Source of the DNA: Gammaproteobacteria bacterium
GTDB lineage: Bacteria; Pseudomonadota; Gammaproteobacteria; VBWC01
Direction: 5' to 3'
DNA length: 64,000 bases
Assembly (NCBI GenBank): GCA_006218035.1
Contig: VBWC01000018.1
Span: forward strand, 1-64,000
In this document: positions 27,158 through 63,412 of the stretch, piece by piece
Layout of the letters: every line of letters begins with the position of its first letter
Numbering within the stretch: position 1 is the first letter of the stretch
Notes under the pieces: model-generated
Databases searched by the model: none
Told to the model about the DNA's origin: nothing
Seen by the model: the letters and a program-made list of their open reading frames with translations, nothing else
Program-made: the position numbers and the translations under genes

Positions 27158-27199
27158 CGTCATTCCGGGCGGCGCGCAGCGCAGACCCGGAATCCAGCG
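27158..27199. repeat. Dispersed repeat between ureD and ureA
   Basis: CGTCATTCCGGGCGGCGCGC then AGCGCAGACCCGGAATCCAG. A further GGATTCCCGCGAAG half-site follows near 27222. Confidence 0.75.
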
Positions 27200-27335
27200 A
27201 CTTCAATCAGACCGGATACTGGATTCCCGCGAAGTTTATGCCCGGAGGGTACGGGAACGACAAATCATCTTTCAACACGACCTGCCCGGTTAGTGATATG
27301 GAAACCTTACCGACGTTGCCCGCACCTCTGATGCA

Positions 27336-37456: not shown

Positions 37457-37588
37457 TGGCGTTCCCAGGGGAATTACTCGGCGCATCCATGCGCGCCGCC
37501 CTCCGGGCCGGCTTGCGGCCGTTCCGATTTGTTCCTGACAAATCGGTCGAACTCCTGTTGCCGCCGTGAAAGAACGATGTCCTCGGCC
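37457..37588 (-). pseudogene. tRNA-Glu-derived remnant, interrupted
   Basis: On the minus strand, bases 37588 to 37547 read GGCCGAGGACATCGTTCTTTC and then ACGGCGGCAACAGGAGTTCGA, which matches the anticodon to T-arm part of tRNA-Glu(TTC) with few changes. About 70 bases of unrelated GC-rich sequence follow, then AATTCCCCTGGGAACGCCA, the tRNA 3' end, and the terminator at 37417-37454. The 5' half is not tRNA-like. It cannot fold as a tRNA. Confidence 0.55.
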
Positions 37589-37760
37589 GGCAAGCCGGCC
37601 CTGGCGGAATAACCGGGCGAAAATAGTGTAATGCCTGGACCATCGCCCTGACCGCCGCATCGGCTTTTCATCGATTATCGACGCATCCGGATCGGCTCAC
37701 TGGGACTGCGCGCGGACAACGCGCTGGGCACATCGTTGGTCAACCGATGTATCACAACCG

Positions 37761-40077: not shown

Positions 40078-40120
40078 AAAATTAAAAAGGCCACACTCTC
40101 CGAGTGCAGCCTTTTTAATT
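40078..40120 (-). terminator. Terminator after the tRNA locus
   Basis: AATTAAAAAGGCCACACTC, TCC, GAGTGCAGCCTTTTTAATT: a stem with two mismatches directly downstream of the tRNA CCA end, with A/T runs on both sides. Confidence 0.85.
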
Positions 40121-40121
40121 T

Positions 40122-40210
40122 TGGCGTCCCCAAGGGGATTCGAACCCCTGTTACCGCCGTGAAAGGGCGATGTCCTAGGCCAAGCGCTCTCCCAGCTGAG
40201 CTATAGCCCC
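40122..40210 (-). tRNA. tRNA-Ala/tRNA-Glu chimera (Glu TTC anticodon half), probably non-functional
   Basis: The 89-base sequence starts GGGGCTATAGCTCAGCTGGG and AGAGCGCTT, the acceptor and D-arm of a tRNA-Ala, then continues GGCCTAGGACATCGCCCTTT with CACGGCGGTAACAGG and a tRNA-Glu T-arm ending GGGGACGCCA. A normal tRNA-Glu has 76 bases with a GTCCCC 5' end to pair with GGGGAC; here the 5' end is GGGGCTA and the acceptor stem cannot form. Its place just after gltX suggests that an original tRNA-Ala - tRNA-Glu pair lost the DNA in between, or that the assembly joined them. Confidence 0.65.
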
Positions 40211-40260: not shown

Positions 40261-41673
40261 TCAGGCGGCCGAATCGAGACGGCGTATATACTCAAGCGCA
40301 CGATCGAGACGCTCCATGGTACGTATGCAGCCGATCAATTCCAGCGTGATATCAATCGGCGGCGATACGGTGCCGCCGGTCACGGCGACACGTAACGGCT
40401 GGGCGATCTTGCCGAGCTTCAGATCATGGGATTCGGCAACAGCGTTGATCGTCTGATGGATCAGATCCGCCCGCCAGTCCGGCAACAGCGCCAAACGCTC
40501 GCGCAGGTTCTGCAGCGGTTCGAGTATATCGCCCTTGAGATGTTTCGCGGCCTTGTCGTCATAGCCATCAATGTCCCGGTAGAAATAGACGCTGTTCTGC
40601 GCCATTTCGGCCAGCGTCTTCGCCCGCTCACACTGCGCCACGACGACCTTCTCCAGTTCCGGCCCGTTTGCCGGGTCGATACCGAGCTGACCGACATGCC
40701 AGCTCAAATGGCGGGCGACATGCTCCGGGTGACTACTCTTTATATAGTGCTGGTTCAGCCACAGCAGTTTTTCAGTATTGAACGTCGATGCCGAGCTGTT
40801 GATATCGGCGATGTCGAACAGTTCGATCATCTCGTCCTTGCTGAAAATTTCCTGATCGCCGTGCGACCAGCCGAGCCGCACCAGATAATTGAGCAGGGCC
40901 TCCGGCAGCAGTCCCTGTTCGCGATACTGCATGACGCTGACAGCGCCGTGGCGCTTGGACAGTCGCTTGCTGTCCGGACCGAGGATCATCGGCACGTGGG
41001 CATAGACAGGCGATTCCTTGCCGAGCGCCTTGAATATATTGATCTGGCGGGGCGTGTTGTTCAGGTGATCGTCACCGCGGATGACATGCGTGATGCGCAT
41101 ATCGATATCGTCGACCACCACCGTCAGGTTGTAGGTCGGCGTTCCATCGGAGCGCGCAATAATCAGATCGTCCAGTTCGCTGTTCTGGAACACGACGTTG
41201 CCACGCACCTTGTCGTCCACCACCACCGCGCCGAGCTGCGGGTTCCTGAAGCGCACGACAAACGGCTGATCAGCCGCAGGGGCATGCTTCAGGCTGCGGC
41301 ATTTGCCGTCGTAGCGCGGCTTCTGCTTCGCCGCCGACTGTTGCTCGCGCAGTATTTCGAGGCGTTCCTTCGAGCAGTAGCAACGGTACGCGTGCCCCGC
41401 CTCCACCAGTTGCGCAATCACTTCGTAATAGCGATCCATGCGTTCGGTCTGGGCGAACGGGCCCTCGTCGTACTCAAGCCCGAGCCACGTCATGCCTTCG
41501 AGAATCGCGTTGACGGATTCCGCCGTCGAACGCTCGATATCGGTATCCTCGATACGCAAAATAAACGTGCCGCCGTGCCTGCGCGCATACAGCCACGAAT
41601 ACAATGCAGTACGGGCGCCGCCGACGTGCAGATAACCGGTGGGACTCGGCGCAAAACGGGTACGAACAGTCAT
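40261..41673 (-). CDS. gltX: Glutamyl-tRNA synthetase GltX
   Basis: 470 residues from the ATG at 41673 ([19 protein letters not shown]), the standard start. Class I synthetase that charges tRNA-Glu: HIGH-type motif in [19 protein letters not shown]-type loop [10 protein letters not shown], and discriminating-type stem-contact domain before an alpha-helical anticodon-binding end. Zinc-site-like cysteines occur in [10 protein letters not shown] and CRSL. Length is normal. It reads toward the tRNA-Ala/Glu locus 50 bases downstream, an arrangement also known in pseudomonads. Confidence 0.97.
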
Positions 41674-41750
41674 GGCGTCGCTGATAATTCCTGGGTTGGT
41701 TTTAAGGGGCAGGATTCTAGCAGGCCGGACGCGCTCACTGACAGCAAAAA

Positions 41751-41780
41751 TTGACGCTCCGCGGTGGGACAACGTAGAAT
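41751..41780 (+). promoter_or_regulatory. Sigma-70 promoter of tRNA-Val
   Basis: TTGACG (41751-41756), an 18-base spacer and TAGAAT (41775-41780). The predicted start falls about six bases before the tRNA. It overlaps the leader region of gltX on the other strand. Confidence 0.65.
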
Positions 41781-41792
41781 TCCGCGCTCATC

Positions 41793-41867
41793 GGGCGATT
41801 AGCTCAGCGGGAGAGCACTGCCTTCACACGGCAGGGGTCGCTGGTTCAATCCCAGCATCGCCCACCA
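41793..41867 (+). tRNA. tRNA-Val (anticodon CAC)
   Basis: 75 bases including an encoded CCA. Acceptor GGGCGAT pairs with ATCGCCC, the D-arm TAGCTCAGCGGGAGAGCA is regular, the anticodon stem CTGCC/GGCAG holds TTCACAC with CAC at 34-36, and the T-arm CTGGTTCAATCCCAG is standard. Fully foldable, unlike the neighbouring Ala/Glu chimera. Confidence 0.96.
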
Positions 41868-61711: not shown

Positions 61712-63412
61712 ATGATCGCCATGAAAAAGAGCCGTCATCACCGTCTGGCCGGGACAATCCTACTGGGCTTGGTCTGCACCGTCATCGGCAGTTGCGCCGC
61801 CCCCGGACACCGGGCCGCGACACCACCGGCTGAATCGACCAGCAAACCCGCGCATGGGTCCCCTTCAAGTGACGACGTTACCACGCTCGGCGATGCCGGT
61901 CCGTCACCGACGACGGGCGCTGACACGATTGCCGCGGCTGCGGCGATACCCGCGGATGAACTCCTTCAATACGACGCCACCGAACCGGTACCTACCCTTA
62001 TCGAGGTCGATCTGTGGCAACGCATTCGTGGCGGATACGCGCTGGTCGATTATGGGAATCCGCGTGTCGAAGCAGAACGTCAATGGTTCACCAAACACGT
62101 CGCGTATCTTGACAGGGTCGCGGAGCGCGCCGAACCCTACCTTTACCATATTGTCGAGGAAGTCGAAAAACGCGGCATGCCGATGGAAATCGCGCTGCTG
62201 CCGATCATCGAAAGCGCTTTCCAGCCGTTGGCCTATTCACACGGCCGCGCCGCGGGAATCTGGCAGTTTATTCCAAGCACCGGTGAACTCTACGGCCTGA
62301 AGCAAAACTGGTGGTACGACGGACGCCGCGACATTATCGCTTCAACGGATGCTGCGTTGCGCTATTTGCAGAAACTGAGCGAAACCTTCGATGGTGACTG
62401 GCTGCTGGCACTTGCCGCGTACAATTCCGGCGCCGGAACCGTCACGAATGCGATCAAGGCCAATATCGCGAAAAACAAGCCTACGGATTTCTGGTCGCTG
62501 AGCCTGCCTGCGGAAACCAGCACTTATGTGCCGAGACTGCTTGCCGTGTCTTCCATCATCGAACAACCGGAGCACTACGGAATCACGTTGCGGTCGATAG
62601 CGAACGAGGCGTCCATCATGACAGTCGATACAGGCAGACAAATCGATCTCGCGCTCGCGGCCGATCTATCCGGCATATCGCTCGAAAATATGTATCGCCT
62701 GAATCCGGGATTTAATCGCTGGGCAACTGATCCGGATGGGCCACACATGCTGGTTCTGCCGGTCGAAAAAGGCGAGCGATTCAGATCCGCGCTGGCGCAG
62801 CTACCGCCGGAAAAACGCATCCGATGGGAGCTGCACCGGATCCGCGGCGGCGAGACGTTAAACCAGATTGCGCAGAAGTACAGCACTACCGTGCAGGTGC
62901 TGAAGGACGTAAACAAACTGGACGGCCATGTCATTCACGCCGACCAGAACCTGGTCATTCCGGTCGCGACACGCAGCCTGGCGAGCTACAGTCTCAGCGA
63001 ACGCCAGCGACTGGTAACCCGGCAGAATACGTCCAGCAGAACCGGCCTGAAGGTGGCCTATGTGGTAAAGCCGGGGGATACGTTCTGGGATATCGCGCGC
63101 AAACACAAGGTCGAGGTCAACCAGTTGGCGTCATGGAACAACATCGCACCGCGTGACACGTTGCGTATCGGCCAGAAACTGGTCGTCTGGTCCAGCGTCA
63201 AAACGGCGGCGGCGCCGGGCATGCCGTCAACCCAGCAGCGGATTAATTACACGGTGCGGCGCGGTGACTCGCTGGCCGGTATATCACAGAAATTCAACGT
63301 CAATCTCAATGATCTGGTGCGCTGGAACTCGCTCGACAAAACCAAACACCTGCAGCCGGGCCAGAAGCTGGTTCTGGTGGTAGATGTCACCCGCCAGGCG
63401 GAAAACACCTAA
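61712..63412 (+). CDS. mltD: Membrane-bound lytic murein transglycosylase D
   Basis: About 566 residues from the ATG at 61712 (another ATG nine bases later is equally possible). Lipoprotein signal with lipobox TVIGSC. A linker rich in Pro/Thr/Ala leads to an SLT family 1E-type domain with catalytic Glu about 167 (LPIIESAFQPLAYSHG), AAGIWQFIPSTGELYGL and ALAAYNSGAGTV. Three LysM repeats follow (RIRGGETLNQIAQKYS, VVKPGDTFWDIARKHK, TVRRGDSLAGISQKFN) that bind peptidoglycan. It cleaves glycan strands to 1,6-anhydro ends during wall turnover. Confidence 0.95.
   Translation: MIAMKKSRHHRLAGTILLGLVCTVIGSCAAPGHRAATPPAESTSKPAHGSPSSDDVTTLGDAGPSPTTGADTIAAAAAIPADELLQYDATEPVPTLIEVDLWQRIRGGYALVDYGNPRVEAERQWFTKHVAYLDRVAERAEPYLYHIVEEVEKRGMPMEIALLPIIESAFQPLAYSHGRAAGIWQFIPSTGELYGLKQNWWYDGRRDIIASTDAALRYLQKLSETFDGDWLLALAAYNSGAGTVTNAIKANIAKNKPTDFWSLSLPAETSTYVPRLLAVSSIIEQPEHYGITLRSIANEASIMTVDTGRQIDLALAADLSGISLENMYRLNPGFNRWATDPDGPHMLVLPVEKGERFRSALAQLPPEKRIRWELHRIRGGETLNQIAQKYSTTVQVLKDVNKLDGHVIHADQNLVIPVATRSLASYSLSERQRLVTRQNTSSRTGLKVAYVVKPGDTFWDIARKHKVEVNQLASWNNIAPRDTLRIGQKLVVWSSVKTAAAPGMPSTQQRINYTVRRGDSLAGISQKFNVNLNDLVRWNSLDKTKHLQPGQKLVLVVDVTRQAENT

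Follow-up and report, generated by a model that had tools for sequence, protein, structure and literature searches.

Across many Gammaproteobacteria, gltX is followed by tRNA-Ala(GGC) and then by tRNA-Glu(TTC), and this arrangement is one close known counterpart of the locus studied here. A chimeric tRNA gene has been described at a tra-cluster junction in Rickettsia peacockii (PMC2791219). The other relevant comparison is technical: when k-mer (de Bruijn) metagenome assemblies fail at common repeats, breakpoints fall k-1 bases inside the repeat, repeat sequence is lost and the ends share k-1 bases. A brief literature search for published reports of such an assembly error returned nothing directly on point.

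We analysed a stretch of 64,000 nucleotides (the window) from a draft genome of a gammaproteobacterium (G000), using a sister genome of the same genus (G001) as the reference for alignments. In gene order, strand and terminator the window matches the gammaproteobacterial gltX - tRNA-Ala(GGC) - tRNA-Glu(TTC) locus, but it lacks tRNA-Ala nt 31-76, the spacer and tRNA-Glu nt 1-18. The remaining Ala/Glu chimera is present in the letters of the window, and its parts and neighbors are as follows.

40078..40121, minus strand: intrinsic terminator after tRNA-Glu, a hairpin with a T run, kept in G001
40122..40180, minus strand: 3' part of tRNA-Glu(TTC), its final 59 nt with the CCA, reading GCCTAGGACATCGCC...GGGGACGCCA from 40180 to 40122; identical to nt 19-77 of the G001 gene; the right-hand assembled piece probably begins with these k-1 nt
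40180..40181, no strand: almost certainly a false join, with about 126 bp missing by alignment with G001 (tRNA-Ala nt 31-76, a 62-bp spacer and tRNA-Glu nt 1-18)
40181..40210, minus strand: 5' fragment of tRNA-Ala(GGC), nt 1-30, reading GGGGCTATAGCTCAGCTGGGAGAGCGCTTG from 40210 to 40181; identical to the intact G001 gene; probable end of the left-hand assembled piece
40261..41772, minus strand: gltX (glutamyl-tRNA synthetase), upstream of the tRNA pair, from the ORF and its homologues; the ORF as listed has an N-terminal extension, homology beginning near residue 34
41793..41867, plus strand: intact tRNA-Val(CAC), upstream of gltX, called by ARAGORN; order the same as in relatives

A single G common to both sides leaves the junction position ambiguous by 1 nt, so that the 29 + 60 nt split given in the first-pass annotation denotes the same junction as our 30 + 59; the CCA end and the terminator that it placed after the Glu part are both found in the letters. 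In G001, intact tRNA-Ala(GGC) (C28:99073-99148) and tRNA-Glu(TTC) (C28:99211-99287) genes follow gltX, and alignment places the missing sequence (46 + 62 + 18 = 126 bp) between Ala nt 30 and Glu nt 19. This 126-bp piece was not found in the readable assembly, and scans of genome and viral contigs for further Ala/Glu chimeras returned none.

The chimera shows neither a paired acceptor stem nor a cloverleaf. ARAGORN calls no tRNA at 40122-40210, and the Rfam tRNA model gives the locus 27.6 bits, short of the gathering score of 29, and places a 20-nt insertion within the D region. Folded as RNA, the chimeric 89-mer lacks the cloverleaf (z -0.01) that the intact G001 tRNA-Glu adopts in the same comparison. 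The acceptor mismatch noted in the first reading is real, and its judgment that this is not a working tRNA is borne out: according to these models, the chimeric molecule could not be a normal tRNA.

The chimera is one of several damaged tRNA genes in the draft. Roughly 40 tRNA genes were found, most of them intact, with damage limited to some. A whole-genome tRNA scan gave two weak matches, which alignment with G001 resolved as tRNA-Arg(TCT) and tRNA-Gly(GCC), each without its 5' part and some upstream sequence. A tRNA-Val(GAC), present in G001 and seemingly absent here, was picked afterwards as a test of the 59-nt rule, and exactly 59 nt of it are kept. The damaged genes outside the window are listed below.

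G000:C2 near 71640: tRNA-Arg(TCT), joined internally, by alignment with G001
G000:C44 near 319988: tRNA-Gly(GCC), joined internally, by alignment with G001
G000:C32 near 12000: tRNA-Val(GAC), joined internally, 26 bp lost relative to G001
G000:C60 base 1: tRNA-Trp, the contig beginning inside the gene, no join made

Glu, Arg, Val and Trp each keep 59 bases from breakpoint to CCA end. Gly keeps 59 or 60, the lower value requiring that one base be read as a substitution relative to G001, a point that we counted against an assembly origin. Two further tRNA genes were observed along the way. A tRNA-Val(GAC)-like gene without an encoded CCA (G000:C53:14809-14881, L068) is unrelated to the genus's own tRNA-Val(GAC) and is perhaps carried on a mobile element. 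In a relative (G032:C101:9581-9907), about 246 bp interrupt the anticodon loop of tRNA-Arg(TCT) and form a candidate self-splicing intron.

We took the two ends of each of the 62 contigs, set aside short contigs masked with N, and recorded exact overlaps of at least 50 bp. All 13 such overlaps among readable contig ends (13/13) were exactly 59 bp long, and where contig ends have a common prefix the next base differs. The window itself provides a case: its positions 1-59, with which contig C35 opens, match the first 59 bases of contig C27 letter for letter and form a k-1 graph overlap. The uniform length of the overlaps identifies 59 as k-1 in a de Bruijn graph whose k is 60, a value among the steps of IDBA-type assemblers. 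For Glu, Arg, Val and Trp the tRNA length kept is thus the same as the contig-end overlap, and for Gly it is the same or one base longer. The 59-mers of Glu, Gly and Trp recur letter for letter in other families of the class and are followed there by different bases after CCA, which is the pattern of a block common to other genomes that then diverges; the Arg 59-mer was found in one other family only, with the same next base, which we counted against an assembly origin. A search for 16S in the genome of the window and in G001 found none in either, and its absence from the former would fit a short-read metagenome draft.

Taken together, these observations make it almost certain, as far as sequence comparison can tell, that the chimera is an assembly artefact and no biological feature; the real genome most likely carries an ordinary gltX - tRNA-Ala(GGC) - spacer - tRNA-Glu(TTC) locus. 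On this reading the draft came from a de Bruijn graph whose k was 60, in which tRNA 3' blocks identical across unrelated community members would form common nodes. A unique contig downstream of such a tRNA would then begin with exactly k-1 = 59 nt of it. Such contig starts would have been joined to an upstream contig without N, at a loss of 26 to 126 bp, giving the false Ala/Glu chimera and headless Arg(TCT), Gly(GCC) and Val(GAC) genes; at tRNA-Trp, contig C60 starts inside the gene, unjoined. The joins probably arose during scaffolding or gap closing. On the left-hand side the breakpoints lie at nt 30 of Ala, 21 bp beyond tRNA-Pro, 42 bp short of tRNA-Gly and a few bp short of tRNA-Val; these positions obey no k rule, which we counted against an assembly origin; a scaffolder trimming a wrongly estimated overlap may account for such variable left ends. 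The site resembles the known type of k-mer misassembly in its k-1 breakpoint, lost repeat sequence and shared ends, but the join here has no N and looks like a clean deletion.

The first-pass annotation had instead proposed a deletion in the organism between an ancestral Ala-Glu pair, while allowing that the junction might be an assembly error. Its ancestral order and the absence of the intervening sequence both hold up. A real event would have been an end-joining deletion of about 126 bp at a 1-bp homology, tRNA-Glu(UUC) and tRNA-Ala(GGC) being supplied from unassembled copies, for which the incomplete assembly (no 16S, short contigs masked) leaves room. The Rickettsia peacockii gene (PMC2791219), likewise described as a chimeric tRNA, makes the idea reasonable, but that gene borders an integrated gene cluster, whereas the site in the window has no mobile element and its breakpoint follows the k of the assembly. 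The breakpoint lies exactly 59 nt before the CCA end, at k-1, a position it shares with three other tRNA genes, or with four if Gly, at 59 or 60, is counted, and for this reason the deletion proposal is very probably wrong and an assembly error the better account of the junction. A genuine deletion pseudogene would also sit poorly with the tRNA supply, since several essential tRNAs would have been lost simultaneously and the sister genome has only one tRNA-Glu(TTC). The genome-wide search for other tRNA-Glu(TTC) and tRNA-Ala(GGC) genes that the first reading had proposed, extended to tRNA-Ala(TGC), found none in the assembly, itself incomplete; nor was a second copy of Glu(TTC), Arg(TCT) or Trp found there. 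The flanks of the G001 tRNA-Ala(TGC) locus have no match in the genome of the window. A tRNA-Glu(CTC) is present on C44; under standard wobble rules it should not read GAA. A count over 25 long window ORFs, chosen for their composition, gave 310 GAA, 30 AGA and 165 TGG codons, and real losses would deprive the cell of the only tRNAs found for these codons. We regard a real deletion at this locus as very unlikely, and a real lineage that lost several tRNA 5' parts at a fixed 3' distance and draws Glu(UUC), Arg(UCU) and Trp from an unassembled replicon as extremely unlikely.

The headless tRNA genes might also be the work of an agent attacking the D-loop, for example a recombinase or a transposon leaving deletions, as every right-hand breakpoint falls at D-loop positions 17-19, beside the conserved GG. 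The constant, however, is the 59 nt to the 3' end: the first nucleotide kept is 19 in 77-nt tRNAs and 18 in the 76-nt tRNA-Trp, and 59 recurs where contigs end away from any tRNA gene. Neither an element nor a target duplication was seen at the sites, and here too the losses would take out essential tRNAs, so such an agent is vanishingly improbable. Two further candidates were rejected. Divergence of the D-loop between species could not have set the right-hand breakpoints, because Gly and Trp are identical over their full length in other families and a break set by divergence should then fall at nt 1. Recombination between short repeats was ruled out by the 0-1 bp common to both sides at the joins examined.

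A degenerate second tRNA-Glu lies about 2.6 kb downstream of the chimera (window 37457-37601, minus strand) and also in G001 (C28:102114-102245, L064); because it occurs in both genomes of the genus, it is not a k = 60 artefact. Its TTC anticodon arm and T-arm are recognisable and it has its own terminator, a matching 5' acceptor is absent, and the T-loop carries a palindromic insertion, 71 bp in the window. It may be either a pseudogene or a reused structured RNA. Elsewhere, the site at window 63408-63412 is empty; in G001 it is occupied by a MITE-like element, about 140 bp long, whose inverted ends read GGAAGCTCTGAT/ATCAGAGCTTCC and which is accompanied by a duplicated CTAA. The window carries a related copy at 27158-27263.

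As a feature, the Ala/Glu chimera would have no biological significance, and its value is as a caution. A draft can be estimated as 100% complete, show no N in the stretches read here, and still hold gapless false joins in tRNA genes, which would be mistaken for lost tRNAs, chimeric tRNAs or anomalies of codon decoding. Comparing the tRNA length kept to the CCA end with the contig-end overlap of the assembly itself is a simple test that would expose them.
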